From NCBI GenBank assembly GCA_964019135.1, contig OZ025260.1, positions 24,298,254 to 24,362,253 of the forward strand: 64,000 bases of DNA. The letters run 5' to 3'. Made by a program: the position numbers and the translations under genes. The notes beneath the pieces were generated by a model, which saw only the letters and a program-made list of their open reading frames with translations, did not search any database and had not been told where the DNA came from. The DNA comes from Arenicola marina (lineage: Eukaryota; Annelida; Polychaeta; Arenicolidae). This document shows, in pieces, positions 10,732-44,330 of this stretch (within the stretch, counting starts at the first letter, position 1; the number at the start of each line of letters is the position of its first letter).

Positions 10732-10889
10732 ATTAAACCGCAACGAGAGCGAGAAGATGCGGCGAGACCGGCTGAACGCCTTCATGGCCGAGCTGGCCAA
10801 GATGGTTCCTTTCGTGATGTCGTCCAGCCGTAAGCTGGACAAGGCCAGCGTGCTGCGGCTGGCGGTCGCCTACCTCCGCATCTACCAGG
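10732..10889 (+). CDS. bHLH-PAS exon: basic helix-loop-helix
   Basis: Acceptor CTCAG at 10727-10731, donor G/GTGAGC after 10889. Encodes NRNESEKMRRDRLNAF (basic region and helix 1), a loop with SSSRKLDK, then helix 2 ASVLRLAVAYLRIYQ. The basic residues E, RR and R at the DNA-contact positions are present, as expected for E-box binding. It ends in phase 1, and its G joins AT of the next exon to give Asp. Confidence 0.9.
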
Positions 10890-16800: not shown

Positions 16801-19800
16801 GCTCAGGAGGTGGTCGCTATAATAGCACGCTGCAGAGCGTCATCAGATCAGCAGAGCCGGGGGGCCCCGTGCTAGCCCAGGAGGTGGTCGCTATAATAGC
16901 ACGCTGCAGAGCGTCATCAGATCAACAGAGCCGGGGGGCGCCGTGCTAGCCCAGGAGGTGGTCGCTATAATAGCACGCTGCAGAGCGTCATCAGATCAGC
17001 AGAGCCGGGGGGCGCCGTGCTAGCTCAGGAGGTGGTCGCTATAATAGCACGCTGCAGAGCGTCATTAGATCAGCAGAGCCGGGGGGCGCCGTGCTAGCTC
17101 AGGAGGTGGTCGCTATAATAGCACGCTGCAGAGCGTCATCAGATCAGCAGAGCCGGGGGGCCCCGTGCTAGCTCAGGAGGTGGTCGCTATAATAGCACGC
17201 TGCAGAGCGTCATCAGATCAGCAGAGCCGGGGGGCGCCGTGCTAGCTCAGGAGGTGGTCGCTATAATAGCACGCTGCAGAGCGTCATTAGATCAGCAGAG
17301 CCGGGGGGCGCCGTGCTAGCTCAGGAGGTGGTCGCTATAATAGCACGCTGCAGAGCGTCATCAGATCAGCAGAGCCGGGGGGCCCCGTGCTAGCTCAGGA
17401 GGTGGTCGCTATAATAGCACGCTGCAGAGCGTCATCAGATCAGCAGAGCCGGGGGGCGCCGTGCTAGCTCAGGAGGTGGTCGCTATCATAGCACGCTGCA
17501 GAGCGTCATCAGATCAGCAGAGCCGGGGGGCGCCGTGCTAGCTCAGGAGGTGGTCGCTATAATAGCACGCTGCAGAGCGTCATCAGATCAGCAGAGCCGG
17601 GGGGCGCCGTGCTAGCTCAGGAGGTGGTCGCTATAATAGCACGCTGCAGAGCGTCATTAGATCAGCAGAGCCGGGGGGCGCCGTGCTAGCTCAGGAGGTG
17701 GTCGCTATAATAGCACGCTGTAGAGCGTCATCAGATCAGCTGAGCCGGGGGGCCCCGTGCTAGCTCAGGAGGTGGTCGCTATAATAGCACGCTGCAGAGC
17801 GTCATCAGATCAGCAGAGCCGGGAGGCGCCGTGCTAGCTCAGGAGGTGGTCGCTATAATAGCACGCTGCAGAGCGTCATCAGATCAGCAGAGCCGGGGGG
17901 CCCCGTGCTAGCTCAGGAGGTGGTCGCTATAATAGCACGCTGCAGAGCGTCATCAGATCAGCAGAGCCGGGGGGCCCCGTGCTAGCTCAGGAGGTGGTCG
18001 CTATAATAGCACGCTGCAGAGCGTCATCAGATCAGCAGAGCCGGGGGGCGCCGTGCTAGCTCAGGAGGTGGTCGCTATAATAGCACGCTGCAGAGCGTCA
18101 TTAGATCAGCAGAGCCGGGGGGCGCCGTGCTAGCTCAGGAGGTGGTCGCTATAATAACACGCTGCAGAGCGTCATCAGATCAGCAGAGCCGGGGGGCGCC
18201 GTGCTAGCTCAGGAGGTGGTCGCTATAATAGCACGCTGCAGAGCGTCATCAGATCAGCAGAGCCGGGGGGCGCCGTGCTAGCTCAGGAGGTGGTCGCTAT
18301 AATAGCACGCTGCAGAGCGTCATCAGATCAGCAGAGCCAGGGGGCGCCGTGCTAGCTCAGGAGGTGGTCGCTATAATAGCACGCTGCAGAGCGTCATCAG
18401 ATCAGCAGAGCCGGGGGGCGCCGTGCTAGCTCAGGAGGTGGTCGCTATAATAGCACGCTGCAGAGCGTCATCAGATCAGCAGAGCCGGGGGGCGCCGTGC
18501 TAGCTCAGGAGGTGGTCGCTATAATAGCACGCTGCAGAGCGTCATCAGATCAGCAGAGCCGGGGGGCGCCGTGCTAGCTCAGGAGGTGGTCGCTATAATA
18601 GCACGCTGCAGAGCGTCATCAGATCAGCAGAGCCGGGGGGCGCCGTGCTAGCTCAGGAGGTGGTCGCTATAATAGCACGCTGCAGAGCGTCATCAGATCA
18701 GCAGAGCCGGGGGGCCCCGTGCTAGCTCAGGAGGTGGTCGCTATAATAGCACGCTGCAGAGCGTCATCAGATCAGCAGAGCCGGGGGGCGCCGTGCTAGC
18801 TCAGGAGGTGGTCGCTATAATAGCACGCTGCAGAGCGTCATCAGATCAGCAGAGCCGGGGGGCGCCGTGCTAGCCCAGGAGGTGGTCGCTATAATAGCAC
18901 GCTGCAGAGCGTCATCAGATCAGCAGAGCCGGGGGGCCCCGTGCTAGCTCAGGAGGTGGTCGCTATCATATCACGCTGCAGAGCGTCATCAGATCAACAG
19001 AGCCGGGGGGCCCCGTGCTAGCTCAGGAGGTGTTCGCTATAATAGCACGCTGCAGAGCGTCATCAGATCAACAGAGCCGGGGGGCGCCGTGCTAGCTCAG
19101 GAGGTGGTCGCTATAATAGCACGCTGCAGAGCGTCATCAGATCAGCAGAGCCGGGGGGCCCCGTGCTAGCTCAGGAGGTGGTCGCTATCATATCACGCTG
19201 CAGAGCGTCATCAGATCAACAGAGCCGGGGGGCCCCGTGCTAGCTCAGGAGGTGTTCGCTATAATAGCACGCTGCAGAGCGTCATCAGATCAACAGAGCC
19301 GGGGGGCGCCGTGCTAGCTCAGGAGGTGGTCGCTATAATAGCACGCTGCAGAGCGTCATCAGATCAGCAGAGCCGGGGGGCGCCGTGCTAGCTCAGGAGG
19401 TGGTCGCTATAATAGCACGCTGCAGAGCGTCATCAGATCAGCAGAGCCGGGGGGCCCCGTGCTAGCTCAGGAGGTGGTCGCTATAATAGCACGCTGCAGA
19501 GCGTCATCAGATCAGCAGAGCCGGGGGGCCCCGTGCTAGCTCAGGAGGTGGTCGCTATAATAGCACGCTGCAGAGCGTCATCAGATCAGCGGAGCCGGGG
19601 GGCCCCGTGCTAGCTCAGGAGGTGGTCGCTATAATAGCACGCTGCAGAGCGTCATCAGATCAGCAGAGCCGGGGGGCGCCGTGCTAGCCCAGGAGGTGGT
19701 CGCTATAATAGCACGCTGCAGAGCGTCATCAGATCAGCAGAGCCGGGGGGCGCCGTGCTAGCTCAGGAGGTGGTCGCTATAATAGCACGCTGCAGAGCGT

Positions 19801-22800
19801 CATCAGATCAGCAGAGCCGGGGGGCGCCGTGCTAGCTCAGGAGGTGGTCGCTATAATAGCACGCTGCAGAGCGTCATCAGATCAGCAGAGCCGGGGGGCG
19901 CCGTGCTAGCTCAGGAGGTGGTCGCTATAATAGCACGCTGCAGAGCGTCATCAGATCAGCAGAGCCGGGGGGCGCCGTGCTAGCCCAGGAGGTGGTCGCT
20001 ATAATAGCACGCTGCAGAGCGTCATCAGATCAGCAGAGCCGGGGGGCGCCGTGCTAGCTCAGGAGGTGGTCGCTATAATAGCACGCTGCAGAGCGTCATC
20101 AGATCAGCAGAGCCGGGGGGCGCCGTGCTAGCCCAGGAGGTGGTCGCTATCATAGCACGCTGCAGAGCGTCATCAGATCAGCAGAGCCGGGGGGCGCCGT
20201 GCTAGCTCAGGAGGTGGTCGCTATAATAGCACGCTGCAGAGCGTCATCAGATCAGCAGAGCCGGGGGGCGCCGTGCTAGCCCAGGAGGTGGTCGCTATAA
20301 TAGCACGCTGCAGAGCGTCATCAGATCAGCAGAGCCGGGGGGCGCCGTGCTAGCTCAGGAGGTGGTCGCTATAATAGCACGCTGCAGAGCGTCATCAGAT
20401 CAGCAGAGCCGGGGGGCGCCGTGCTAGCTCAGGAGGTGGTCGCTATAATAGCACGCTGCAGAGCGTCATCAGATCAGCAGAGCCGGGGGGCGCCGTGCTA
20501 GCCCAGGAGGTGGTCGCTATAATAGCACGCTGCAGAGCGTCATCAGATCAGCAGAGCCGGGGGGCGCCGTGCTAGCTCAGGAGGTGGTCGCTATAATAGC
20601 ACGCTGCAGAGCGTCATCAGATCAGCAGAGCCGGGGGGCGCCGTGCTAGCTCAGGAGGTGGTCGCTATCATATCACGCTGCAGAGCGTCATCAGATCAGC
20701 AGAGCCTGGTGCCGTTATGGGATCAATGTTCGACATGGAGACCGGAGATTGTTTCACATATCTAATCTTCTCGTTGTCCCGGCAGGGTTTTCTGGTCTGG
20801 GTTTCAACAACGGTGGCCAGACATATTGAAATTGTTATCATTTCTTTTATGGATCCATTGCAGCATTCTTCTCTTCAATTTCTCAAGTCATTTTTTTTTT
20901 CGCTTTCTAGGCTTGTTTTTTTTGGTCATTTCCGCCCTTAATTTATCCATTTTTTTATCCATTCTTCCATGTCTGTCTTGCGAACCCTGGTCTGTGTCGC
21001 AAGCAGACGACAGTCGCCCTTACAGTGGCTGGTCCCTGGACTTCTAATTAACGTATCATTTTTTCAGTCTTCTCTGTTTTCAAAGCGCTTATTTAAGGAC
21101 ATATGTCTAACAGTCATCGTTTTCTAGAGCAGGTGTTATTAATATGGCTTTTATTAATGCATTTCAAGTAGACGTTTTCTCAATCTCGGCGTCTTTATGG
21201 ATGTAAGTTACACCTGATGACATGATTTGTAATCGGCAATAATGTAAGTTTGCTTATAGCGCAACGGCGCCGGGGTTCTTACGTAATTTGTTGCTACTTT
21301 GTTTCAGTCCCTCAACGGATTTCTTTTCGTCGTCAACCGTCGCGGCACGCTGGTCCTGGCAACGGAGGCCATGTCTGAAATCCTGGGCTTTGACCTGGTG
21401 AGATGGATAATAAGCGGCTAGAGGGCAGCCAGGGGGCTTATTTCAGGGTGCTGGACGTTATCACGGGTTCGGAATGATAGAGTCATGAAGCTTAATCTCA
21501 ATTCTCAGTAAGGGACTTGTGTTCAGGACCTCCTTGGTGTCAATGAAAAAAGCATAACTTGTAAATAGAGACGTCTGGTCAGCTACTGAGTGATTTGTGT
21601 CGTAAACCAGTGATGCACCAATGGGCGGGTCACCATGTCCCAGAGCTGCTTAAAGCTACGGGACATCCTAATATTTAATGGGACATTAGTTTAAATGAAA
21701 TATTGCGTAGTCTGCATGCTAGTTTATTGGAAGGAAATCCCTTAAATAATTACATTTACAATAGTTTCAGATACTAGACCTACTTACCTATAATTAATAT
21801 TAACGGCACTTGATCCTGGGTCACCATTGCAAGTCGGTTCCTGTGTGGTGTAAGGCCCCCGATTCTGGACAAAACCCGTCTCACACCCAGCTGTTATACA
21901 TATATTTACAATGCGTCCTCATGTCCCCTCACAACTCAATGAAATGCGTCATTTGAAATTTGTGTACGACAAATGACGCAGAACGCCTACCTCAGAATCG
22001 ATGTGAACATAACTCGGATATTCACTGAAAAGAAGGATCGGACATCTGATCGTGAATCCGAGATTAGGAGACATTATAAAGTTGCATATCGAGCTATTTC
22101 CCGCCAGAACTAAGGCCAGGCGAAATTTATATCAAAATAGGGAGAAAACTTAATTGCTTCATACTATAAATTCAGAAACGTTATAAACACCACTGTTTTG
22201 GCTGTGATGTAGAAAACGTGTCTATCCCGCGACACCACAGAACTCCGTCGCGGCAATGCTACTTATAGCAAAGCATCGCGAAGCACACAAACTGATGACG
22301 TTTACCACTGAAATGAAAACTTGTGGTAAATTGATATCACGGGCAAGGCCAGGAGACTCTGTGTGGCAGTCTGGCAAGCGTGGATTATAGACAAAAGAAA
22401 TCTTGAATGATTCAAGGACTGATTCCTATTTGTATTTTGGCCTCCTTAGTTTTGGCGGGAAAGAGCTCGATATGCAACTTTAATTAAGCAGGACGAGCAA
22501 AAGTGAGATCTCCAGCTTGAGTGAATATGAGATATGATGATGGTAAACGGAAAGTGAGCTGGTTCAGATGTGGTAGAGATTGACCGAAAGTGAGGTGTTT
22601 CAGATATGAAATAGATTGACCGAAAATGAGATGGTTCAGATGTTAAATAGATTGACCGAAAGTGAGATGGTTCAGATATGAAATAGATTGACCGAAAGTG
22701 AGATGGTTCAGATATGAAATAGATCGACCGAACGTAAGATAATACAGATAACAAATAGATTGACCGAAAGTGAGATGGTACATATATAGTAGATATTAAC

Positions 22801-25800: not shown

Positions 25801-28800
25801 TCTTTATGGATGCATACGCAGTGAGGAGATGTTATTGTTATAGTGCTGTAAAATCGCGGTCCATGCGGTTAATCCCGACCTTCTCCCCGTTTCGAGACGA
25901 GAGGCCGGCCCGGTAGCTCAGTGGGCTAGAGCGCTCGCATTGAGTGCTCTGGCCACCTGAGAGCCTAACGGCCTAACGTGGATCTGTGGTTCGTACCCCG
26001 CTGTGGCCATGTCTGTGAGGTCGCAGGATAAAGATACCATGTCCTTCCTCGCAAAGAGTAGGGGGTTACCCCCGGGGGCATGGCTCCACTCTCCCTTCCT
26101 TCTCCCATTGCCACGCGCTATGACCAAAAGTGGTTAAAGCGTCCTGAATATACAACCAACCGTTTCGAGACGATGTATGAATAGCGGCTATTTTGTTGCC
26201 ATTGCGCAGGCGCGGAGGTCGGCATGAGTACCCACAGAGCCTTCAGTCTGCGCATGCTCCAGAAGACCTCCAAGACGTCCGACACATACGTCACCATCAG
26301 TGTGGTCGGCTACCTGAAGCTGGTCCCTGGGATCCAGCCCTCGCAGCCGGGTAAGTGTGTCTGGATCCTGGTGACCGTCATGGGGCCTAGCCGGAGCGCC
26401 ATCTGTGGGTAGATTGACCCGAAGTGAGATGCGGTGTGCCATGCGGGCGAATTATAAAATGAGATGCTTCATGCACTATGCTCAAGGGTGAGAACGAATA
26501 AATCAGAGTAAGCGTAACGAACATCAATTATGAATCGTCGGTTAAATAATTGTTTTTCTGTGGCCTCACACTTAGGCAATTTGGTATTTAGTCAGTGCTC
26601 CAGTTTGTTGACTGATGCCTCTTGTTCGGCTGTCTCACGGCACTGATGACTGATGTCCCCCTAGAATTGACTGACGCCTGATGTCCCCCTAGAATTGACT
26701 GACGCCTATGTCTCCCTATCCCAGCCTCACCTGACGCCCGTGTCCCCTCACCTGACGCCCGTGTCTTCTTATCCCAGCCTCACCTGACGCATGTGTCCTC
26801 CTATCCCGGCCTCACCTGGCGCCTGTATTCCCATGCCTGACGCCTGTGTCCCCTCACCTGACGCCTGTGTCCCCCTGTCCCGGCCTCACCTGACGCCTGT
26901 GTCCCCCTGTCCCGGCCTCACCTGACGCCTGTGTCCCCCTGTCCCGGCCTCACCTGACGCCTGTGTCCCCCTGTCCCGGCCTCACCTGACGCCTGTGTCC
27001 CCCTGTCCCGGCCTCACCTGACGCCTGTGTCCCCCTGTCCCGGCCTCACCTGACGCCTGTGTTCCGCTGCAGGCACGAGCCACCAGACCCGCGGCGAGCC
27101 GGACGTGTGCCTGGTGGCGGTGGGCATGCAAGCCCGGCGGGAGACTATCAACGATCTAGACCCCGCCCCCGACACCTCCACCAACCAGTGGATGACACGC
27201 CACGAGATGGACGGCAAGATCACCTTCAGCGAACAGAGGTCAGTGAACCCAGTCCCACGTCCCCCATCCTGTGAAGATGACCAAAATACATGTAGTTCAT
27301 CATTTTAGTAGTGCCGTCATATGATATTATGCCCACGCCCCTCATTCTGTGAATATAATCAAAATGCATGTATATCGTCATTTTAGTAGCGCCGTCATAT
27401 GATATTATGCCCACGCCCCTCATTCTGTGAATATAATCAAAATGCATGTATATCGTCATTTTAGTAGCGCCGTCATATGATATTATGCCCACGCCCCTCA
27501 TTCTGGGAATATAATCAAAATGCATGTATATCGTCATTTTAGTAGTGCCGCCATATGATATTACGCCCTCGTCCCTCATTCTGTGAATATAATCAGTCCA
27601 TATATTTCCTCAGTTTAGTGTTTCCGCCTTTTGATATCATGCCCACGCCCCTCATTCTGTGAATATAATTTAAATTTAACATGTGCTCTTCCTCATTTTA
27701 GTATTGCCTCCTTTTGATATCATACCCATGCCCCTCTTAATGTGAATATAATCAATATACATATATTACCGTCTGTTGAAATCACTAAAATTAATTATAC
27801 AGTAGAACCTGCTTAATAACTTAATATGTTTGGGACAAAGCCATATTTCCATTGATGTACAGGTTTTCTATTAACAAGGTTCAAGTAGGGGTTAAACAAA
27901 AGGCAGGATCTGGAAAACTGTCGGATGTTGACAGGATATGGGTTTAGTCGGGGTAATAGGGTACTATGGGTCGAGGAAATAGTTACACGTTTAAGCTCTT
28001 GTGTATAAAAATACAGCTTCTAGTTAATATCCTGTTATGGCAAATAGACCTGACTCGATGTGTATTAAGCTTGTTATCGATTTATGTCTCGTCATAATAG
28101 TTCTGTCCTTGTGAGTGTGTTTTAACTTAGTACAACTGGTGTGTGCAAACACTATCGTCTTTTTTATCGTTGTAAATATGTCCTCGAACTCGCATCTTCT
28201 ATGGTTTTCTCGTATACCAACAGGGATATGGTTATAATAGATTCGGTTCTTAAAGTTGCATGTCGAGCTCTTTCCCGCCAAAACTAAAGAGGTCAAAATA
28301 CAAATAAGAATCAGTCCTTGAATTCTATACTAATAAAATGAAGCTGTCTGTCCCACTATGCCGCGGCATGCAAGAGCCCATTGGCTCCAGCACCCGCCTT
28401 GAGAACCTACGCCATGAGAACCTATTAATATCCAGCCGTCGCTCTTAGATGTGTCAAAACTATCACATGTGTCAACACAACCGCTGGGTGCTTATCACCT
28501 TATCCCGCGGCCTGCGGCATGCTACCAGGCTTGGTGCCAACAGTAATAATATTTCTCCCCAACGCCTTATCGCCCGAACCGTCATCAAAACAAACAAATC
28601 CCGTACTGTCTCGCTTCCACAACTTTCCATTAGTAGCAAGAGAACGAACTCCGCCCGGGAAACTCTGCCCGGGAAACCTATAATACGCTGCTCTTAACAT
28701 CAGTCACGGCAGTATCCAATTCCACCCACACCAACCATGGTTAATGGACTCCTCTCTGCTCATCCCCCACACCCATCCACCCGACTCCTGCAGCCCCGCG

Positions 28801-31800
28801 CCCCGTCGATATTCATCAGACTCCGGCTTTACTGGCCCGCCCCCTCGCCCACCGGCACCCACTAGACTTAAGGTTTATGCACTTCTGTTTTTGTTCGTAC
28901 CCTCTACTGACTTAACGACAACAGCTATCGTTCACCAACTTTTATGGAAATGTGGCATGTGCGAGCCTCTACAATTTTCAAGTATTATTGTATCCAGTAC
29001 AGAATACGCAAATTGCAGCTAAAGCACGCTGACAAAAATGTGTACATGGCGTATATGTATCTCACTTGGAATAACAACAACATGTCTAGATGCAATCTGT
29101 ACCATTATGGTACCGGAAGCGTGACGTTAAAGACCGACGTACAGAAACAATTCTAATTATCGTATATGTTGAAATTATAACATTCATTTGTAATCAACAA
29201 ACATGCGCAAAATAACTGAGCGGACGCGTGTCGTTAAAGACCGACGTACAGAAACAATTCTAATTATCATATATGTTGAAATTATCCTTAACATTTATGT
29301 CCCGTTATTCAGTAGCTCCCGGTCAATATTATTATCGATATTATTTCTGCCCAATGTCTACCTTCTGCCTGCTACTATTTGACGTATAAACCTAAATACT
29401 GTCATACTGTTATTTATTCTGCCCAATGTCTACCTTCTGCCTGCTACTATTTGACGTATAAACCTAAATACTGTCATACTGTTATTTATTCTGCCCAATG
29501 TCTACCTTCTGCCTGCTACTATTTGACGTATAAACCTAAATACTGTCATACTGTTATTTCTTTCGCTTATTACTACGAACACTAGACGTCCCGCGAGCGG
29601 AGCGAGCGGGGCGGCTAGTATCCCCAAAAAATGGAGTCTCTTAGCTACGCCCGCGATATCAATTAACCATTGATTTTCAACTTAGGGGTAAACGTCCTCA
29701 GTTTTTGCGCTTCGCGATGCTTTGTTATAAGTAGCAGTGCCGCGACAGAGTTCTGTGGTGTCCACGTTTGCCATATCCCAGCCGAAACGGCGATGTTTAT
29801 TAGGTTTCTGATTTTAAAGCATGAAACAATCGAGTTTTCTGCAAATTGTGATATATATATCTATATCGCCTGGGGTTAGATTTGGCGGGAAAGCAGCTTT
29901 AACTTAACTGTGCGGTGTTTGGTGTTTTGACGTTGACAGGGGCGCCTGGATGACCGGGTTCCTGCCGGGCGAGTCCGTGGGGCTGTCTCCGTACGCCCTG
30001 ATCCATGAGGACGACATCTCCTGTGTGGTGGACTCCCACAACGCCTGTAAGTACAGCCCGCCTTGTGCAATGTAACTGTGTGACTGTATGTGATCGTACA
30101 AGGAGCGTGCATATACCTCCGGAAAACAATTAGGTGTGTAAGTGAACGTACAAGGCGCGTGCATATACCTCTGCAAAACAATTGGGTGTGTAAGTGAACG
30201 TACAAGGAGCGTGCATATACCTCCAGAAAACAATTGGGTGTGTAAGTGAACGTACAAGGAGCGTGCATATACCTCAAGAAAACAATTGGGTGTGTAAGTG
30301 AAAGTACAAGGCGCGTGCATAACCCTCCAGAAAACAATAGGATGTGTAAGTGAACGTACAAGGCGCGTGCATATACCTCCAGAAAACAATTGGGTGTGTA
30401 AGTGAACGTACAAGGAGCGTGCATATACCTCCAGAAAACAATTGGGTGTGTAAGTGAACGTACAAGGCGCGTGCATAACCCTCCAGAAAACAATAGGATG
30501 TGTAAGTGAACGTACAAGGAGCGTGCATATACCTCCAGAAAACAATAGGATGTGTAAGTGAACGTACAAGGAGCGTGCATATACCGTCAGAAAACAATAG
30601 GATGTGTAAGTGAACGTACAAGGAGCGTGCATAAACCCCCAGAAAACTGTTTTTGTGTACATGAGGTCTCCGCATCCTTTCAGCTGCCTTTGACATATCC
30701 TCATTAAAATTGGAATTGATACTGATTGACCTGTAGTTACAAATATATGAATTAAAAATTTAAACTTATTTTCTAGGGCCTCCATAACACTTGAAGATGC
30801 TTGAGCCCATGACTAAAGCTATTAAACTGCCTAGGGTTTTTTCAATAATTGGCTAACAGACCCTAACAGACAGATCACATCTCCGGGAACAGCAGGGCCA
30901 CACACCCAGACCCTGTATGGGAACAGCAGGGCCAGACACCCAGACCCTGTATGGGAACAGCAGGGCCAGACACCCAGACCCTGTATGGGAACAGCAGGGC
31001 CAGACACCCAGACCCTGTATGGGAACAGCAGGGCCAGACACCCAGACCCTGTATGGGAACAGCAGGGCCAGACACCCAGACCCTGTATGGGAACAGCAGG
31101 GCCAGACACCCAGACCCTGTATGGGAACAGCAGGGCCAGACACCCAGACCCTGTATGGGAACAGCAGGGCCAGACACCCAGACCCTGTATGGGAACAGCA
31201 GGGCCACACACCCAGACCCTGTATGGGAACAGCAGGGCCAGACACCCAGACCCTGTATGGGAACAGCAGGGCCAGACACCCAGACCCTGTATGGGCCCAG
31301 CAGGGCCAGACACCCAGACCCTGTATGGGAACAGCAGGGCCAGACACCCAGGCCCTGTATGGGAACAGCAGGGCCAGACACCCAGACCCTGTATGGTAAC
31401 AGCAGGGCCAGACACCCAGACCCTGTATGGGAACAGCAGGGCCAGACACCCAGACCCTGTATGGGAACAGCAGGGCCAGACACCCAGACCCTGTATGGGA
31501 ACAGCAGGGCCAGACACCCAGACCCTGTATGGGAACAGCAGGGCCAGACACCCAGACCCTGTATGCGCTACCTCGTCACGTTGGTGCAACTCCGCCCTGA
31601 ACCCGGATCGAGAATTTAAACCTAATCCATTGCTTTTTTCTGTTTTTAAAGTTTTGACAACTGGTGTGATCCCGAAGACGATCTTCCGGATGTACACCAA
31701 GTCACGTGACATCCTGTACATCTGCACCACGACGCACATGATCGTTGACATGTGGACGTCTAAGCCGAGGTTCATCATCAGCATCAACCAGCTACTCGAG

Positions 31801-34800
31801 TGAGTGGCCTCCACAGACTCTTGGGGTGGGGGGGGGGGGGGTGGCGGAGCGTTTACATTGTGAATGGTTAAAGTCCAATCTGGAACCTTTTCTTTGCATT
31901 TTCTGGGAATGCGCAAGGTTTAGAAAAATACATTTGCAATTTTGTTATCGTTCATACATTATACATGTCGAATTCTCTCAAAAAAAGCAAACAAGTTACG
32001 GATTTATGTGTGGAAGTAAGACGCTATGAGCTTTATATGACCCAGCGCCTGCGCGGACTTAATTAACATGGCTGCGGCCCATTGCATTGCAGATCGAAGA
32101 CCGGAAGGAAGATGCTCAAGACCCAGAAACGCCGCCAGAGGACGCTCAAGGCCCAGGCTATGGACGTTGACTCGTCGGACACGGCCAGCAGCGACGGCAT
32201 GTCTCCCGCGGTGGGGGGTGGCGGCCGGGCGGGGGGTGGCGGCGGCGGCGGCGGCGACGGCGGCGGCGGTCCCGGCAGCCTTGCCGGCGACGAGGAGGCG
32301 GCGGCGAGGGCCGTGGAGGGCGATAATGAGGAGGATGATGACGACGATGACGACGATGATGCCGAGGAGGAGGATCGGGGTGCCGGGCGGGGGGCCGGAC
32401 GCTGATCCCGGAGACGGTTGCCGCGGGAGACCACGCCATCCACGTGATGGTCGGCGTCCATAAGTTTGAGATCGACCTGTCCCGGAACGAGACCTTCCAC
32501 CCGCAGCCCGCCGCCTTGGACGGCGGCAGCACGATCTTTCACCCGGCCGTCCACGGCGACGAGGGCGGCCAGGGCATCCCCTCCGTCAAGCCGGTCTTCC
32601 TGGGCGACGAGCTGTCCCCGACCGGCGGCGACGCGGCGCGGGCCAGCGCCAGCCCCTATGACCAGATCAACGCCATGCTCGGCAACGACGTCCTGCCCGA
32701 GCTGTCCGAGAGCGGCGTCCCCATGGTGCCGGCCGCGTGGGGGCAGGCCGCCGCCGCCGCCGCCGCCGACGCCGGGTGCCAGGGTGCCGCTCTCAGCAGG
32801 CTCCACCAGATGATGTTTGGCACGCAGGACGGGGACAGGGGCGGGGGAGAGGGAGGCGGAGGTGGAGGGAGCGTGGGAGGGGGTGGGCAGGATGGGGTCG
32901 AAATGGGTATGGAGTATGTGGAGGGAGGCGCACCGGCGGCGGGCAGTGGGGGGGCATTTGGGGGCAGCGCCAGCTCGATCCAGCAACTTCAAGCCCTGGC
33001 GACCCTGGTCGAGCACCGCCGGCGGAGTAGCCCCGGCGCCATGGGCCACCCCCAGCCCCACCCCCAGGCCCAGCTCCTGACTCACCCCCAGCCTCACTCC
33101 CAGCCTCACTCCCACTCACACCCTCACCCCTGTGCACCCATCCCGCTGGGTCTCCTCCAGGATTACGGCTACAACCAGTCGGTGGGACTGAACGGCGCCT
33201 ACCCGGGCCATCTGGCCGACCTGGGCCGGCTGGCGGACAGCCCCCCGGGCCTGGCCGCCGTCGCCCCGAACGACGTGCTGACGTACCTCACCCCTCAGGC
33301 CGCCGAACAAGGCTCCCATCCCCACGTCCACCCCCTCGCCGCCCCTTCCTCAAGCGGCCCATACGCGGCGTCCCACAGCACTACGGCCCCGACCTTCACC
33401 TTGACCTCGTCGTCGACCACGGCCTCCCCGACCCCGGCGTCCACTTTTTCGTACGCCAGAGGGCAGCAGCGTCCATCGCCCGGCGCCTGCGTCAGCTGTG
33501 ACGCGGTGTCGTCATCTGTGGCTTTCGTGACGGCGACGACGACGACGGCGACGACGACGCGGCCGGCGGCGTCGCACGCCGTCACCAGCGCCGGGTCCGT
33601 CAGCTCGTCCCTGGCCACGCCCTCCAGCACGGTGCCCTCTACCGGTAGCCAGAAGAACTCGCTGCTCCTCAAGCTGCTCAGCCAAAAGTCGCAGCAGGGC
33701 GCCACGGTGCGGGAAACGGTGACGTCGCATTTGGTGAATGAGCTGCAGACCTACCGGACGTCGTCCAGCGCGGCGACATCTAACGGCGATGCCTCAGCCT
33801 CCAGCACGGCCACCGCGTCCAGCACAGCCACTGCGGCCGACACCACAACAGGTAAAGCGTCCAGCACCGCCTCCGCGTCCAGCACAGCCACAGCGGCCGA
33901 CACCACAACAGGTAAGGCGTCCAGCACCGACTCCGCGTCCAGCACAGCCACAGCGGCCGGCACCACAACAGGTAAGGCGTCCAGCACAGCCACCGCGTCC
34001 AGCACAGCCACCGCGTCCAGCACAGCCACAGCCTCCAACCCAGCCACATCGGCCGACACCACAACAGGTAAGGCGTCCAGCACAGCCGCCGCGTCCAGCA
34101 CAGCCACCGCATCCAGCACAGCCACAGCATCCAGAACAGCCACAGCGGCCACAGTCCACAATTACTGAAGACACTGGGAGGTATACCTTCCGGTAATTTG
34201 TCATTAAGACTTTAATCTGTTGAAATCCTCACCCTACATGAGATATAGAACAATTTGTATTCCTAAATCAGATGAGACAAGATCCGGCTTTTCATAATAT
34301 CTTTCTTTGTGTTTGTGTTTTAGATATTGACACGTTAAATCAGGAGTGCGTGATCACCTCATCAGACGAATCAAACGGATCGGTAAGTCCCTTAGTACTT
34401 AAAATATGTACCTACGTACATTATACTTTTTTTGTACTTTAGTGCTGATAGTAAGTAATGTACAGTATGCTCGTTATGTCCTTTATCACGTACAGTATGT
34501 ACTGTGAAGAATGTTTTGCATTAATGATAGATATATTTTCATATAAGAAGTGTCGTAATGACTCTGGTTGTTTGATATTTGCCAGGGTAGGTTCTTCTAT
34601 TCTGCTCAGTATTGTGTTGGTAGACTGTTTGTAGAACATTTTTGACATGTTTATTACCCATAAGATAGGTTGTTTCGTGGCTCTGTACGTCATACTGTTT
34701 GGTAACTACAGTTTGATGTTTGTCGAAAACACGCAGTTCCATTTGCAGTTACAGCAATATTTTTCCCGAAAACAAAAAATATTATGTTACAATATTTTAA

Positions 34801-37061
34801 ATGAAAATTATGTATTTAGGATCTTTGACGTATAAGAACACATATGTTCTATGTTATAGCCACTTGTTGGTCCAGCTGGTGCGTCACCTGTGGGAAAGTG
34901 GGGCTTTATTCTGTAATACTTCATCAACATGTGGACATTTGGACATTGGACATCGCCGTGTTCGCCTGTTAACATGATAATATCTCTATTTCATACATAG
35001 TTTGGCACAGTCAGACAGTGTGTCCAAGACGTGCTTGTAAAAATATTTTGAACATCATCATATAGGTTAAAACTTACTGTATGAGGAGCTTTAATGTCCT
35101 TCCCTACTTCCGCTTCCGGCTATTGAGCCTTAACTGCATGGATGACGTCACTCACCTTGCAGATTGCTCCCGGCGTGGAGGACGCCGCCGGTGACGTCAT
35201 ATCCGCCAGCCCGTCGTCTCTGGCGTGCCACCTGGCGGCCCACCAGGAGCTGCGGGAAAACTTGCTGAGTCACAGCGAGCGGCTGCAGTGTCTGCGGCAG
35301 GCCTACCAGTACGAGGGCGGCCCGGACCAGCCAGGGCTGGAGCAGGACCCAGCCTACAGACACCACGTCGACAACATACTGCATCTGCAGGTCAGTCGAA
35401 GTAGGGTATGGGGTGGGGGAAAGGCGGCGGGGCGGCGGGGGTCGGGGTGGGGTGGGGGTATGCCCGTTAGGCAGGTAGGTATGCGACCGCCACAGATGAT
35501 ACATCTAGCAGCATTTCTTGAAACGTCATACAACGCTAGACTACACAACGCAACAACCGCCCTCTCTCTCCCAAGAAAAAAACAAAAAAAAACATACACC
35601 GGTAGTAAAACTATGTATCATATCAACCTATATTTTCAATACTCTATATCTTTATTTTTGTTTACTTCACATGTCCATGGTTCAAGTTCAAAATTCAAAA
35701 TTGTAGTTGTGATTCTCGGCCAATATTATTTAGGCTATTCGGTCCGTTTGAAAGCTTTATGGTTACTTGTTACGTGGTGGTGCCAGTGTCCTATAATAGG
35801 GAGGTCTCCAAAACCATATACACACTTCTAAATATAGATATCGCGATGGTGGGCATCATTACTGTCTGGTCTGATCAAATATACATGATACGGCCACTGT
35901 GTCAGCAATTGATTTGGACAATGGCTTGTTCAGTACCTTTTTGACATGGGTTTGCCATTCACTAATGCGACGTAGGACGCTTACAACCGGATTATCCTTG
36001 GCGGTGTGCCATGATGTGGAATACTGAAAGCTGCTGATGCAACAAGTTTCGATCTCTATATTTCATGTGCTTTCTTCAAAAACTTAATGAACATATTATT
36101 TGATCTGGAAATATTTGCGTAATCACATCTAGATTCATGCTAAAGGGAAAATACGGTAGCAATGTCCCAAGTTTGATGACGTAGAACACAAGAATGCCAC
36201 ACTTTGCGACACGATGAGATTCTAGCCAAACGAAGTCCACATGCCTTTGAATTTGTTGCATATATAATGTTTTAATCTATAAATGCAATATGGACCTACA
36301 TATTTGTATCCTGTTAAATATATTTCCATAACTGGGACCTAAATATATAATTTCCAAATTTGAAAATTTGAACGCGTTTATCAGGAGGAAAATTTCTGCA
36401 TGATAATGATATATGAATTCAGGCGCAGATCGCGCATCAAGAGGACAAACTGAGGGCGCTGAGACAACGCTACGAGACTCAGCAACAACAGCAGCAGCAG
36501 CAGCCGCAGCATCCGCAGCAACAGCCGCCGCCGCAGCAGCAGCCGCAGCAGCAGCAGCCGCAGCAGCAGGGCTCGCCTGCCGAGGGTAGCGGGTCGTTGT
36601 CCCCGGGGTTTGAGGCTATGTCCTGGCGGAGTCCCCCGGAGTGGGACAGCCAGACGTCCGAGTCCCCGGCCAGTAGCGGCGGCCGCTCGCTGTACGGCAG
36701 CTCCTCCTCCTCCCTCAGGCTGGGGGAGGGCGGTCGCCGCACCTCCAGCCGCTACTCCTCCGTGGACAGCTCCCCCGGGGGGCGGCCTCCGCCGACCCCG
36801 ACCGCTGGCGCAACCCCGGGCCCACCACCCCCGGGGTCCAGGCGCGGCCAGCGGCGGGGCACAATCCCGGAGGAGCCGTCCCCCGCCGACCCTGGGCAGG
36901 ACCCCTTCAGCGACGACGGGGAGGAGGGGGCGGCCCCTCGCGTGGGGCGCGACCCCCACACGCAGCCGTTGGCGTTCAACCAGCGGGGATATGACTCCCA
37001 GCGCCGGCTGCCGCAGCAGCAGCAGCAGCTCTTACAACTTCAGCAGCGGCAGCAGCAGCGG

Positions 37062-37141
<80 letters not shown>

Positions 37142-38126
37142 GCAGCAGCAACAACCTGATATGAGCTGCGGGGACTACCACGGCGCTGTGGTGCGGGGCA
37201 AACGCAGTTTGGGAGCCCCGTCGGCGGCAAGGGTGGTCCCCAGGGGCGCCGGCTGCGGCTACGTCCTCCACCTGGGGGAGGCTGGGGAAAACGGGCTGGC
37301 CGCGGCCCTGCCCAGGCTCAGCGGGCGGCCAGGGCGGGGGGCGCCCCGCCCTAGGGTAAACGGCAGCCACACCCCTCGCACGGGCCTGGCCACAGCCCCA
37401 GCCCCAGCCCCAGCCCTGGCCACAGCCCCAGTCTCCGCCACCTCCGCCTCCGCCTCCTCCACCACCTCCCGGGGCACCCCCGGCCTCCTTTCTGGGCAGC
37501 AGACGAGTAGTCAAGCCGCGCATACCCCGTACTTCCAGGGACGAGGTCAAGGTTATATGTCCACGCAAGGTCAAGGTCAGAGTTCGTTGATGAACGGCAA
37601 CACCCAGAAGTGTCAATCGGTGCCGGGGACGGCGGCAGCTGCGGCAGCTGCGGCAGCTGCGGCTGCTGCTGCTGCGGCTGCGGCTGCGGCGGCGGCGGCG
37701 CGGCCTCCATTCTCCGTCTCCGTCCCCGTCTCCGTCCCCATCACCCACAACGGGGGCGCCCGCCTCCCCACACCGCCCATGCCCTTGCCCCTGCCCTCCG
37801 CCCTCGCCGCCGGCCCCGACGGCACCCTCTTCTACATGGAGCAAGGCGTCCCGTTGGATATCGGCAATAACCACGGCGGACTCTATCACGAGGTGCGCCA
37901 CCTGGAGGCCGAGGCGCTCAACGGGCAGGTGCCGACGCTGGGCTACGCCATGGACCCAGCACCGCACCCAGCGGCGCACCCAGCGGCGCACCAGGCGGCG
38001 CACCCCGGGGCGGGCGGCGTCCCCATGGCTCCCGGTCTGCTCTCTCCCATGCTGGGTGACGCCATGCTGCCACAGGACCGGCTGGCCGACTGTAACCACT
38101 CGTTTGCTCACTCGGGGGCGCTGTAG
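10732..38126 (+). CDS. bHLH-PAS transcription factor, methoprene-tolerant/gce-like, 12 exons, 5' end missing
   Basis: Twelve exons with consistent GT-AG sites and phases: 10732-10889, 16021-16103, 21308-21397, 25511-25613, 26210-26350, 27073-27238, 29940-30046, 31652-31799, 32093-33851 (or a later donor up to 34067), 34324-34382, 35163-35390, 36423-38126. Domain order is bHLH, PAS-A, PAS-B, then a C-terminal half of low-complexity tracts with a short coiled-coil-like part. Family members are nuclear DNA-binding proteins that act as dimers; Met/gce proteins bind juvenile hormone through PAS-B. The bHLH pattern SEKMRRDRLN plus RKLDKASVLRL and the LRIYQ end favour Met/gce over BMAL/ARNT, but a BMAL-like origin cannot be excluded by eye. 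The start codon lies upstream: the first exon seen opens two bases into a codon. About 1,580 residues are visible, long for the family, mostly through the C-terminal repeats. bHLH-PAS identity is very likely; the Met assignment is probable. Confidence 0.85.
10890..11284. other. Intron sequence after the bHLH exon
   Basis: G-rich for the first 100 bases after the donor, then unremarkable. No repeat or exon recognised before the LINE. Confidence 0.5.
11285..13318 (+). mobile_element. CR1-type LINE fragment A: endonuclease and partial reverse transcriptase
   Basis: Two frameshifts (near 11690 and 12775) split the ORF. The start reads CGDIQPNPGP, a 2A-like motif. The AP-endonuclease part has ISESWLD, RQGGGVLVYVRD, VVIIGDFND, LDLVITD and NLDHHLV. 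The RT part has YRPISLLSCVGKPMERI and VIVILDVTKAFNRV, where the usual FDRV Asp is Asn. It breaks off at 13318, before the catalytic DD motif. Defunct, in the intron after the bHLH exon. Confidence 0.88.
13319..14710 (-). mobile_element. LINE fragment B with zf-RVT end, inserted between fragments of A
   Basis: Minus-strand element with an A-rich tail at about 13319-13337. The protein from about 14678 reads RSFQFIILHRTTVTNRFLYM, then CGFCGNECETIEHLFYYCQP, a zf-RVT zinc-knuckle typical of LINE C-termini. It continues in frame across the insertion of element C (VKSLW then SEFIALFRNV at about 13735). A TGCCG at 13314-13318 and 14711-14715 may be its target duplication. Confidence 0.75.
13751..14446 (-). 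mobile_element. 5'-truncated LINE fragment C nested in B
   Basis: Bounded by a 13-bp direct repeat, ACCATAATGACTT, at 13738-13750 and 14447-14459. It encodes SKFRCGMYLLRK, CKYCLEENGQQ and DEFHIVVKCPFYLPLRSKY, a LINE C-terminal cysteine/histidine region. The 3' end has AAATAAACATTATTATT, a microsatellite-like tail. Confidence 0.85.
14711..15770 (+). mobile_element. CR1-type LINE fragment A: C-terminal part
   Basis: Reads THIRPLLE, AVPVFHGNLTKYQSEKLES, VQRQALLTATRAYAS, then at 15178-15654 RLRRGLSGLNAHRYNYGF and CTKKPEDSTHYLLQCPTY. This is the post-RT region of the same LINE type as 11285-13318. The central RT segment is missing, so this is either one internally deleted copy or two copies. Stops are present. 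Confidence 0.75.
15775..15972 (+). mobile_element. 3' end of a second C-family LINE
   Basis: KCAAKLYEKTYL matches the end of element C (KCAIQLYEEAYL). The non-coding tail GGGCCTGGTGCCTACAGTT, GAAATAAACATTATTATT is shared. It ends 48 bases before the exon at 16021. Confidence 0.8.
16021..16103 (+). CDS. bHLH-PAS exon: linker and start of PAS-A
   Basis: Follows acceptor CCCATTCAG; donor AAG/GTAAGC at 16104. Encodes DLIKNGHTGVKWKPDF and TYSDLGDMLLK. The other two frames contain stops or lack family resemblance. The LGDMLLK segment is the usual lead-in to the first PAS strand, which continues on the next exon in phase 0. A 74-bp satellite begins immediately after the donor. Confidence 0.85.
16104..20705. 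repeat. 74-bp satellite, about 62 copies, starting at a splice donor
   Basis: The unit includes GTGCTAGCTCAGGAGGTGGT, CGCTATAATAGCACGCTGCA and GAGCGTCATCAGATCAGCAG. The first unit follows the exon donor within about 20 bases. Copies differ at few positions, mainly GGGGCGCC versus GGGGCCCC. Each has an A-box match (TAGCTCAGGAGG) and a 7-bp inverted repeat CGTGCTA/TAGCACG. No B box was found. Confidence 0.97.
20706..21307. other. Intron sequence before the PAS-A exon
   Basis: T-rich single-copy looking sequence with no repeat or additional exon recognised. Confidence 0.5.
21308..21397 (+). CDS. bHLH-PAS exon: PAS-A, first half
   Basis: Acceptor TTTCAG, donor CTG/GTGAGA. Thirty codons including SLNGFLFVVNRRGTLVLATE and a segment ending EILGFDL. 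It shows the hydrophobic NGF-FVV strand, turn and second strand of a PAS domain. Both ends are phase 0. Confidence 0.9.
22079..22481. mobile_element. TA-flanked MITE, copy 1
   Basis: Terminal inverted repeats: AAGTTGCATATCGAGC, TTTCCCGCCA at the left, and the complement TGGCGGGAAAGAGC, TCGATATGCAACTT at the right. A TA dinucleotide on each side fits a Tc1/mariner-type target duplication. The interior, read in reverse, matches the two arms at 28253-28323 and 29619-29899. No coding capacity. Confidence 0.75.
22510..22850. repeat. 36-bp minisatellite
   Basis: The unit is GATTGACCGAAAGTGAGATG plus GTTCAGATATGAAATA, about nine copies, degenerate at both ends. A solitary related unit is near 26410. 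Confidence 0.85.
22848..23208. repeat. 121-bp tandem triplication
   Basis: Three nearly identical copies start at about 22850, 22971 and 23092 (GAGCGTCACCCACAGGGTGA). A fourth copy of the segment is at about 24829-24930 within the 602-bp repeat. Confidence 0.93.
23209..24330. repeat. Short CAGATTTGACC arrays around unassigned sequence
   Basis: About 23209-23315 and 24112-24255 hold irregular 20-bp repeats of TCAGATCCAGATTTGACCCC. Between them is repeat-like DNA with three TGACCTTGA-type half sites at 23932-23980. No exon recognised. Confidence 0.7.
24331..25430. repeat. 602-bp tandem duplication of a dispersed repeat
   Basis: Two copies begin GAGCAGTACTCCACCCTGAA at 24331 and about 24933. 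Each contains TCCCATGTTAAACG, GCGCTAGCTCCAAAAC, a TGACCTTGACCTTTGACCT block and an ACAGACAGACACACAC microsatellite. A diverged relative is at about 61320-61700. Confidence 0.9.
25511..25613 (+). CDS. bHLH-PAS exon: PAS-A, second half
   Basis: Acceptor GCAACAG, donor G/GTAAGA. Encodes VEVLGNSIYKMIHEDDEEL and a following EQFKGVNVEALET. The LG-SIY-IHEDD signature is the canonical PAS helix region. It ends in phase 1. Confidence 0.9.
25614..25908. other. Short intron stretch
   Basis: AT-rich sequence between the PAS-A exon and a SINE; nothing recognised. Confidence 0.5.
25909..26160 (+). mobile_element. tRNA-derived SINE
   Basis: Full-length copy: GCCCGGTAGCTCAGTGGGCT head, GTGGTTCGTACCCCGC B box, CAGGATAAAGATACC, GGGGGCATGGCTCC and GTTAAAGCGTCCTGAATA. 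It ends just before the acceptor at 26209. Confidence 0.85.
26210..26350 (+). CDS. bHLH-PAS exon: PAS-A end
   Basis: Acceptor TTGCGCAG, donor G/GTAAGT. Encodes GAEVGMSTHRAFSLRMLQKT, then TYVTISVVGYLKLVPGIQP. The FSLRML and GYLKL strands close PAS-A. Phase 1 at both ends. A SINE at 25909-26160 sits about 50 bases upstream of the acceptor. Confidence 0.9.
26640..27060. repeat. 32-bp minisatellite abutting a 3' splice site
   Basis: The regular part (about 26860-27060) has the unit CCTGACGCCTGTGTCCCCCT plus GTCCCGGCCTCA; upstream copies are degenerate. The last partial unit, CCTGACGCCTGTGT, leads straight into TCCGCTGCAG, the acceptor of the exon at 27073. Confidence 0.92.
27073..27238 (+). CDS. 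bHLH-PAS exon: PAS linker and start of PAS-B
   Basis: Acceptor GCTGCAG, donor AG/GTCAGT. Encodes PDVCLVAVGMQARRETI, a linker, and WMTRHEMDGKITFSEQR. The TRHEMDGKI motif is the conserved PAS-B entry seen in ARNT, BMAL and Met proteins. A 32-bp minisatellite runs up to the acceptor. Confidence 0.9.
27262..27760. repeat. 78-bp minisatellite
   Basis: The unit includes TCATATGATATTATGCCCAC, GCCCCTCATTCTGTGAATAT and GTCATTTTAGTAGCGCCG; about six copies, decaying towards the 3' end. It begins about 25 bases after an exon donor. Confidence 0.9.
27761..28252. other. Intron sequence
   Basis: AT-rich, single-copy looking, up to the left end of MITE copy 2. No exon recognised. Confidence 0.5.
28324..29618 (+). 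mobile_element. Non-autonomous Helitron
   Basis: Begins TCTATACTAATAAAATG and ends with a hairpin (stem CGTCCCGC/GCGGGGCG, one G-T pair) followed by CTAG/T, the standard Helitron 3' signature. About 1.3 kb without Rep/helicase coding. Inside are two copies of a GTTAAAGACCGACGTACAG segment (about 29126 and 29233) and a 72-bp triplication. Confidence 0.75.
29346..29570. repeat. 72-bp triplication inside the Helitron
   Basis: Three copies of TCTGCCCAATGTCTACCTTC, GCCTGCTACTATTTGACGTA and AAATACTGTCATACTG, nearly identical. Confidence 0.9.
29940..30046 (+). CDS. bHLH-PAS exon: PAS-B core
   Basis: Acceptor GTTGACAG, donor T/GTAAGT. Encodes GAWMTGFLPGESVGLSPYAL and IHEDDISCVVDSHNA. This is the PAS-B helical part with the IHEDD motif. 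The acceptor lies 40 bases downstream of a MITE end at 29899. It ends in phase 1. Confidence 0.9.
30085..30650. repeat. 52-bp minisatellite with donor-like GTAAGT units
   Basis: The unit is GTGTGTAAGTGAACGTACAA, GGAGCGTGCATATACCTCCA, GAAAACAATTGG; about 10 copies, starting about 40 bases after the PAS-B exon donor. Most units contain GTAAGTGA. Confidence 0.92.
30880..31566. repeat. 34-bp minisatellite
   Basis: The unit is GGGAACAGCAGGGCCAGACA plus CCCAGACCCTGTAT, 20 highly uniform copies in the intron before the last PAS-B exon. All six frames are nearly open, giving spurious long ORFs. Confidence 0.97.
31652..31799 (+). CDS. bHLH-PAS exon: PAS-B end
   Basis: Acceptor TTTTTAAAG, donor GA/GTGAGT. 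Encodes LTTGVIPKTIFRMYTKSRD, then ILYICTTTHMIVD and FIISINQLL, the last strands of PAS-B. The first codon is split with the previous exon's T. It ends in phase 2. Confidence 0.88.
31800..32092. other. Short intron
   Basis: Contains a G run at about 31827-31841, otherwise nothing recognised. Confidence 0.6.
32093..34067 (+). CDS. bHLH-PAS exon: long low-complexity region, with frameshift and four tandem donors
   Basis: Acceptor CATTGCAG. Reading opens with SKTGRKMLKTQKRRQRTLKA, a basic stretch, then a Gly-rich tract and an acidic run of Glu and Asp (about 32320-32380). The frame hits TGA at 32403-32405. From about 32361 the frame one base earlier is open and continues through FEIDLSRNETFHPQP, a His-rich segment near 33045-33135 and Ser/Thr/Ala repeats. 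A single missing base, or two extra, between about 32361 and 32404 explains this; that span includes a run of G. Phase arithmetic agrees: the exon is 1,759 bases to 33851 and only closes if one base is missing. The donor is one of four CAACAG/GTAA sites ending at 33851, 33911, 33971 and 34067, all in the same phase. If none is used, the frame stops at 34166-34168. Confidence 0.75.
33820..34075 (+). repeat. Coding repeat with four in-frame splice donors
   Basis: Repeats of GCGTCCAGCACAGCCACAGC and GGCCGACACCACAACAG/GTAAGG. The donor G is at 33851, 33911, 33971 and 34067, spaced 60, 60 and 96, all multiples of three. Each joins the exon at 34324 in the same phase. The first has GTAAAG, the others GTAAGG. 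Confidence 0.85.
34324..34382 (+). CDS. bHLH-PAS exon: short acidic segment
   Basis: Acceptor TGTTTTAG, donor TCG/GTAAGT. Entered in phase 1, it reads DIDTLNQECVITSSDESNGS, exactly 20 codons with the incoming G, and leaves in phase 0. Unlike its repetitive neighbours it is not low-complexity. Confidence 0.8.
34383..35162. other. Intron sequence
   Basis: AT-rich, no repeat or exon recognised. Confidence 0.5.
35163..35390 (+). CDS. bHLH-PAS exon: coiled-coil-like segment
   Basis: Acceptor CACCTTGCAG, donor CTGCAG/GTCAGT. Seventy-six codons, phase 0 at both ends. It contains LACHLAAHQELRENLLSHSE and RLQCLRQAYQYE, an amphipathic heptad-like region followed by HHVDNILHLQ. No named domain was recognised. 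Confidence 0.82.
35391..36422. other. Intron before the terminal exon
   Basis: G-rich near the donor (35400-35460), AT-rich afterwards. No exon or repeat recognised. Confidence 0.5.
36423..38126 (+). CDS. bHLH-PAS terminal exon: polyQ and polyA tracts, stop at 38126
   Basis: Acceptor ATGAATTCAG, entered in phase 0, starting AQIAHQEDKLRALRQRYE and continuing the coiled coil of the previous exon into Gln/Pro repeats. The middle is Ser/Pro/Gly-rich. A main glutamine tract of mixed CAG and CAA codons spans about 37008-37155, and a run of roughly 26 alanines spans about 37629-37700. The end has HPAAHPAAHQAAHP and stops with TAG. Such tracts are typical of activation domains. No AATAAA was seen in the next 200 bases. 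Confidence 0.85.
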
Positions 38127-43130: not shown

Positions 43131-44330
43131 CAAAGCCTAGCGCAGCTCAGTGCCTCGGTCCAAAGCCTAGCGCAGCTCAGTGCCTCGGTCCAAAGCCTAG
43201 CGCAGCTCAGTGCCTCGGTCCCAAGCCTAGCGCAGCTCAGTGCCTTGGTCCAAAGCCTAGCGCAGCTCAGTGCCTCGGTCCAAAGCCTAGCGCAGCTCAG
43301 TGCCTCGGTCCCAAGCCTAGCGCAGCTCAGTGCCTCGGTCCAAAGCCTAGCGCAGCTCAGTGCCTCGGTCCCAAGCCTAGCGCAGCTCAGTGCCTCGGTC
43401 CAAAGCCTAGCGCAGCTCAGTGCCTCGGTCCCAAGCCTAGCGCAGCTCAGTGCCTCGGTCCCACGCCTAGCGCAGCTCAGTGCCTCGGTCCCAAGCCTAG
43501 CGCAGCTCAGTGCCTCGGTCCAAAGCCTAGCGCAGCTCAGTGCCTCGGTCCAAAGCCTAGCGCAGCTCAGTGCCTCGGTCCAAAGCCTAGCGCAGCTCAG
43601 TGCCTCGGTCCAAAGCCTAGCGCAGCTCAGTGCCTCGGTTCCAAGCCTAGCGCAGCTCAGTGCCTCGGTCCAAAGCCTAGCGCAGCTCAGTGCCTCGGTC
43701 CAAAGCCTAGCGCAGCTCAGTGCCTCGGTCCCAAGCCTAGCGCAGCTCAGTGCCTCGGTCCAAAGCCTAGCGCAGCTCAGTGCCTCGGTCCAAAGCCTAG
43801 CGCAGCTCAGTGCCTCGGTCCAAAGCCTAGCGCAGCTCAGTGCCTCGGTCCCAAGCCTAGCGCAGCTCAGTGCCTCGGTCCAAAGCCTAGCGCAGCTCAG
43901 TGCCTCGGTCCCAAGCCTAGCGCAGCTCAGTGCCTCGGTCCCAAGCCTAGCGCAGCTCAGTGCCTCGGTCCAAAGCCTAGCGCAGCTCAGTGCCTCGGTC
44001 CAAAGCCTAGCGCAGCTCAGTGCCTCGGTCCAAAGCCTAGCGCAGCTCAGTGCCTCGGTCCAAAGCCTAGCGCAGCTCAGTGCCTCGGTCCAAAGCCTAG
44101 CGCAGCTCAGTGCCTCGGTCCAAAGCCTAGCGCAGCTCAGTGCCTCGGTCCCAAGCCTAGCGCAGCTCAGTGCCTCGGTCCAAAGCCTAGCGCAGCTCAG
44201 TGCCTCGGTCCAAAGCCTAGCGCAGCTCAGTGCCTCGGTCCCAAGCCTAGCGCAGCTCAGTGCCTCGGTCCAAAGCCTAGCGCAGCTCAGTGCCTCGGTC
44301 CAAAGCCTAGCGCAGCTCAGTGCCTCGGCA
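43131..44330. repeat. 30-bp minisatellite, 40 near-identical copies
   Basis: The unit is CAAAGCCTAGCGCAGCTCAG plus TGCCTCGGTC. Exactly 1,200 bases. Units differ almost only at one position (CAAAG versus CCAAG). Open in two plus frames and one minus frame; downstream, diverged CACAAAGCCAACGCTGG units extend to about 44600. Confidence 0.98.

Follow-up and report, generated by a model that had tools for sequence, protein, structure and literature searches.

An exon of the gene analysed here ends in a tandem repeat that carries four copies of a 5′ splice site, and the question it raises is whether the number of these copies, and the choice among them, sets the length of the encoded protein. The initial annotation proposed that it does, describing a repeat-driven splicing rheostat in the C-terminal region of a transcription factor. 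The exact sequence CAACAGGTAA occurs four times in the window (the whole 64-kb stretch of Arenicola marina DNA that was analysed), on the + strand at 33846, 33906, 33966 and 34062; thus, all four copies lie inside 226 bp (33846-34071). In shuffled sequence, its mean count was 0.11, and none of 100 dinucleotide shuffles gave four or more copies.

By its domain content, the host gene on the + strand is a bHLH-PAS transcription factor, in agreement with the class first assigned to it; Pfam matches were obtained for HLH (5e-14), PAS (4e-12) and PAS_11 (1.5e-19, over the joined PAS exons). The PAS exons, also on the + strand, fall between 21308 and 31799. The features that precede or include the repeat are the following:

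10732..10889, + strand, bHLH exon (HLH match)
29940-30046 and 31652-31799, + strand, two PAS-B exons (PAS_11 match)
32093..34067, + strand, exon 8 in its longest spliced form, acceptor attgcattgcag/ATCGAA, continuing the frame of exon 7
33665..33679, + strand, LLKLL (LXXLL-type) motif by pattern match, some 120 bp 5′ of the array

Exon 8 comprises the end of the PAS region, an acidic/Gly-rich stretch, a long Ser/Thr/Ala/Pro-rich region and the array itself. The gene model is without a protein start, and an exon is probably missing between the bHLH exon and the first PAS exon, since their phases do not meet. An apparent frame break in exon 8 near 32380-32404, in a G-rich stretch, is likely a sequencing or assembly error; otherwise, it may represent a disrupted or variant allele. 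The remains of a LINE-type retrotransposon, with endonuclease (PF14529) and reverse transcriptase (PF00078) matches, lie at 11659-13357, downstream of the bHLH exon.

Among the best 60 of 68 PDB sequence matches, the closest solved structures are BMAL1, ARNT and CLOCK chains. The bHLH-PAS part matched 35 proteins at E ≤0.001 among 2,356 candidates, with 24-33% identity; the informative names among these relatives are ARNTL/BMAL/cycle, and many are unnamed. A longer query, scored against the 7,980 candidates with most words in common, gave at least six protein matches, two of them unnamed and four of AHR type. A Met-like bHLHPAS-orphan gene group has been described in amphioxus (PMC4066832); no match in either of our protein searches was named Met, many matches being unnamed. 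For exons 9-11, no orthologue was found at E up to 1 among 339 candidates.

The repeat at the end of exon 8 is built from two kinds of unit. The 18-bp unit has the consensus TCC AGC ACA GCC ACC GCG, read as SSTATA, and the 24-bp donor unit has the sequence GCC GAC ACC ACA ACA GGT AAG GCG, read as ADTTTGKA, with two single-base differences among its four copies. Their arrangement is as follows:

33800..34147, + strand, minisatellite of 14 18-bp units and four 24-bp donor units, in the order A2D A2D A2D A4D A4
33836..33859, + strand, donor unit 1, CAG/GTAAAG, exon end 33851, weaker donor
33896..33919, + strand, donor unit 2, CAG/GTAAGG, exon end 33911
33956..33979, + strand, donor unit 3, CAG/GTAAGG, exon end 33971
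34052..34075, + strand, donor unit 4, CAG/GTAAGG, exon end 34067, intron-proximal
34076..34168, + strand, read-through tail of four more 18-bp units (72 bp), then ATVHNY and the stop TGA at 34166-34168

The repeat array placed by the initial annotation at 33838-34075 is real, but its true extent is larger, from 33796-33800 to about 34147-34154, past the last donor. Repeat units flank both sides of every donor (33800-34147), so that the copies span the predicted exon-intron boundary. All four donor units contain CAG/GTAA. In the unspliced reading, GGTAAG encodes Gly-Lys and the frame stays open to the TGA at 34166-34168; because the unit lengths are also multiples of three, each copy reads as a coding repeat that doubles as a full 5′ splice site. 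By their sequence, the four donor sites are copies of one another, all within a single kind of 24-bp unit, which rules out four splice sites arisen independently by chance. A fifth, decayed donor unit considered at the 3′ edge (34152-34176) was not supported, as its match was equalled by 39.9% of 2,000 shuffles.

Tandem repeats are abundant in the window, where 28 selected arrays (1-58112) make up 34.8% of the sequence, including a 74-bp unit present in 62 copies at 16115-20706. Four minisatellites (26746-27069, 27254-27766, 30085-30647 and 30885-31565) each lie 4 to 87 bp from exons of the bHLH-PAS gene: a 32-bp array ends just before the exon 5 acceptor, a 78-bp array lies just after the exon 5 donor, a 52-bp array with GTGTAAGT motifs follows exon 6, and a 34-bp array precedes exon 7. 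The window gave no Rfam match at gathering scores and no match in a tRNA scan.

Downstream of the array, the predicted coding sequence continues in three exons:

34324..34382, + strand, exon 9 (59 nt), acceptor tttgtgttttag/AT, donor TCG/gtaagt
35163..35390, + strand, exon 10, phase 0
36423..38126, + strand, exon 11, the last coding exon, phase 0, with poly-Gln and poly-Ala, ending in TAG

Exon 11 holds poly-Gln (CAG-rich) and poly-Ala (GC-rich) runs at 36480-36569, 37013-37150 and 37630-37704, which are candidate length-variable tracts.

The last exonic bases of the CAACAG/GTAA sites are 33851, 33911, 33971 and 34067, with spacings of 60, 60 and 96, and all four sites are in phase 1. The spacings follow from the unit order, 96 being 60 plus two extra 18-bp units, and the common phase follows from the unit lengths of 18 and 24 bp rather than from four separate coincidences. 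Exon 9 is open in one frame only, the one entered after a phase-1 donor; the other two frames are closed. Joined to 34324, every donor reads ...ACA ACA G/AT ATT GAC, i.e., T-T-D-I-D (...TTT-DIDTLNQ...), and with exons 8-11 joined in silico, the frame is open from 32402 to the TAG at 38126 in all four junctions. The intron would measure 256 nt from 34067 and 352, 412 or 472 nt from the other donors. The distance from the first to the last donor is 216 nt, divisible by three and equal to 72 residues. The positions and spacings of the donors, their joining to 34324 in a single phase and a maximum length difference of 72 residues without a frameshift, all put forward in the initial annotation, were therefore borne out. 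At the level of sequence, two or more competent donors stand ahead of the single acceptor at 34324.

The open read-through tail admits a reading in which exon 8 is terminal, ending at the TGA of 34166-34168, and exons 9-11 are confined to a different isoform. The open reading frame reaches 34168 and the tail copies are in frame, as this reading predicts; nevertheless, the A[AT]TAAA signal is absent from 34168-34323, and exons 9-11 are in phase with the array donors over about 2.0 kb of coding sequence, which makes a terminal exon 8 very improbable. Retention through 34168 may give a minor truncated isoform.

Donor strength was scored with a donor matrix that covers GT sites only. On this scale, donors 2-4 (CAG/GTAAGG), which have one 9-mer in common, score 11.41 each; donor 1 (CAG/GTAAAG), at 7.61, is weaker, yet within the donor range of the gene. 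The eight other scored donors of the gene (the exon 3 donor being left out) range from 6.83 to 10.29 and are all outscored by donors 2-4. Over the whole window, a score of at least 11.4 was reached by 3 of the 4,005 GT sites on the + strand, namely donors 2-4, and by 2 of 3,987 on the - strand. Among the 87 GT sites in 32402-34319, the array donors are the top four and the next phase-1 site scores 5.29; the early part of exon 8 (32093-32405) contains nine GT sites, the best of which scores 5.48. More than two donors of at least 7.6 were found only in the donor array among the 28 selected tandem arrays scored on the + strand, four others of which contain one or two such donors. Because the other phase-1 GTs in 32402-34320 score 5.3 or less, the joining of exon 8 to exon 9 through an array donor appears nearly forced. 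This real donor signal makes it very likely that exon 9 is spliced from one or more of the array sites, and at least one array donor is very probably in use.

The anatomy of the locus recalls the "mirage" minisatellites of amphioxus, described in Adh3 and in the globin genes BflGb6 and BflGb9 (PMC3087553; the original Adh work, by Canestro and colleagues in 2002, is cited therein). Mirages are reported to carry AG/GT signals in many copies and to be unstable in length, somatically so at Adh3; in that account, they do not interfere with regular splicing, and possible use of their copies as cryptic splice sites, with alternative and perhaps aberrant transcripts as the result, is allowed for (PMC3087553). 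As in amphioxus, the copies here bear splice signals at an exon-intron boundary, and the unit sizes of 18, 24 and 60 bp are within the 10-72 bp range given for the Adh3 mirages (PMC3087553). By anatomy, the array fits the mirage class. What sets it apart from that class as described, judging from the predicted reading frame, is that every copy keeps both phase and coding frame: a single open frame runs through the array, before and after each donor, and all donors are in phase 1, and therefore any donor choice would encode a full protein. No coding array whose repeated donors all preserve phase was named in the literature searched, which consisted largely of titles and abstract openings; such an array may nevertheless be in print. 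In human segmental duplications, alternative splicing can arise from internal tandem repeats located at exon-intron boundaries, and there too variation of a boundary repeat changes coding length and splicing pattern (PMC2812944). Those cases are described between recent paralogues and involve novel introns, whereas here the repeat is within a single gene and is read from sequence alone.

Based on this anatomy and on the donor scores, we consider the chances even that the array is a coding mirage-type minisatellite with at least two donors used at a detectable level. A single used donor, most likely 34067, is a serious possibility that we place somewhat short of even; in that case, the upstream GGTAA(A/G) sequences would be Gly-Lys codons suppressed by exon definition, and the array a coding VNTR without a role in splicing. 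The 9-mer common to three donors, which leaves position to decide, is consistent with single use, as is the undisturbed regular splicing of the published mirages (PMC3087553). Nevertheless, copies 2 and 3 match copy 4 in strength and exceed the eight other scored donors of the gene. Local RNA structure was set aside as a selector among the copies, the mean unpaired probability over the four donors being 0.43-0.55 with no clear difference.

Both of these readings have the array translated, and its reading frame is open throughout. So is one of the two alternative frames; thus, openness is a weak sign of translation. Likewise, a period divisible by three says little by itself, since it was found in 10 of the 27 other selected tandem arrays. 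Of the 23 differences between copies, 15 fall at third codon positions, a bias with p 0.0017 that presumes independence, although the array copies share descent; when distinct variants alone are counted, the figure is 8 of 15 (p 0.088). As controls, 10 presumed non-coding arrays were used, of which six have at least 15 differences. In five of these six, the differences are not strongly biased toward any phase (0.34-0.47 in the fullest one), and the sixth, at 43131, has 14 of 16 differences in one phase, a stronger bias than that of the donor array; the other four control arrays have 0 to 4 differences each and are little informative. Given the distinct-variant count and the biased control, the substitution pattern supports translation of the array only weakly, and we regard translation as likely. 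The lean toward third codon positions also agrees with the use of a single donor.

These observations bear as well on the reading in which exon 8 truly ends at 33851 and the array beyond it consists of intronic mirage copies, after the pattern of the globin genes, where the authentic transcript sections are distinguished by name from the mirage duplicates (PMC3087553). Under this reading, the splice site in use would be the weakest of the four (7.61 vs 11.41), and neither the frame open throughout the array nor the weak third-position lean across it would be expected. We regard this reading as very improbable.

The intervals between donors could themselves be spliced, each 60- or 96-nt interval acting as a tiny intron (exitron) or each boundary as a recursive splice site, given that CAG/GTAAG is both acceptor-like and donor-like. 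Every interval starts with GTAA, ends with CAG and measures a multiple of three nucleotides; new introns have been proposed to arise through tandem duplication of AGGT. In Schizosaccharomyces SPOG_01682/SOCG_00815, introns made of 24-nt repeats lie within repeat arrays, at positions that differ between the two orthologues (PMC3629103). Those genes resemble the present locus in having a short exonic repeat with AGGT (AGGT content according to PMC4974935); there, the new intron is made of repeats and one in vivo structure is called unsettled (PMC3629103), whereas the array studied here is followed by a conventional intron with its own acceptor. The C+T share at -20 to -5 is 0.44-0.50 in the candidate acceptors, within the range of the 11 acceptors of the gene (0.38-0.88), and does not separate them from real acceptors. 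However, the T share over the same positions is 0-0.06 in all four candidates vs 0.31-0.75 at the 11 acceptors, and it is for this missing T-rich tract that we consider exitron or recursive splicing unlikely. A recursive product would, moreover, be the same mRNA as direct donor choice.

Returning to the use of at least two donors, we propose that a segment with the exon 8 donor (ACAACAG/GTAAGG) was tandemly duplicated along with the surrounding 18-bp Ser/Thr/Ala units, and that U1 would be able to pair with any of the copies. Since donors 2-4 have an identical 9-mer, position and splicing factors would decide among them. Among equal 5′ splice sites, the intron-proximal copy usually wins by default; therefore, 34067 is probably the main site. 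Donors 33971, 33911 and 33851 would then yield minor isoforms that fall short of the 34067 form by 32, 52 and 72 residues; counted from the shortest form, the products would be 20, 40 or 72 residues longer. The length change would fall in a low-complexity linker between the LXXLL-type motif and the Gln-rich C-terminal exons, and array length is expected to vary between individuals. SRSF1 has been reported to favour intron-proximal donors, and hnRNP A1 intron-distal ones (PMC5585400). The competing 5′ splice sites of DOK7 likewise present a choice of proximal or distal donor before a single acceptor; in DOK7, there are two unlike sites 11 nt apart and one choice leads to a frameshift, whereas here there are four duplicates, three with the same 9-mer, and no frameshift (PMC5585400). 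It is conceivable, though in our judgement rather unlikely, that a coding minisatellite, heritable and perhaps unstable in somatic cells, determines how many donors compete as well as how long the linker is. Array length, in concert with the balance of splicing factors, would then yield graded protein lengths without a frameshift penalty.

The strongest statement that these data support is that the gene contains a minisatellite in the coding frame, whose four donor copies keep one phase and include the three highest-scoring donors of those scored in the gene, and that at least one of the four is very probably used. The "rheostat" of the initial annotation goes beyond this evidence. If only one donor is used, the locus would show how exon definition handles coding sequence that contains strong decoy donors. 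If several are used, it would provide a ready-made set of nearly identical 5′ splice sites, regularly placed ahead of a single acceptor, in which proximal-donor preference and the direct effect of minisatellite mutation on protein length could be tested in vivo, and a case of a mirage-type minisatellite that changes the protein instead of being silently spliced away.
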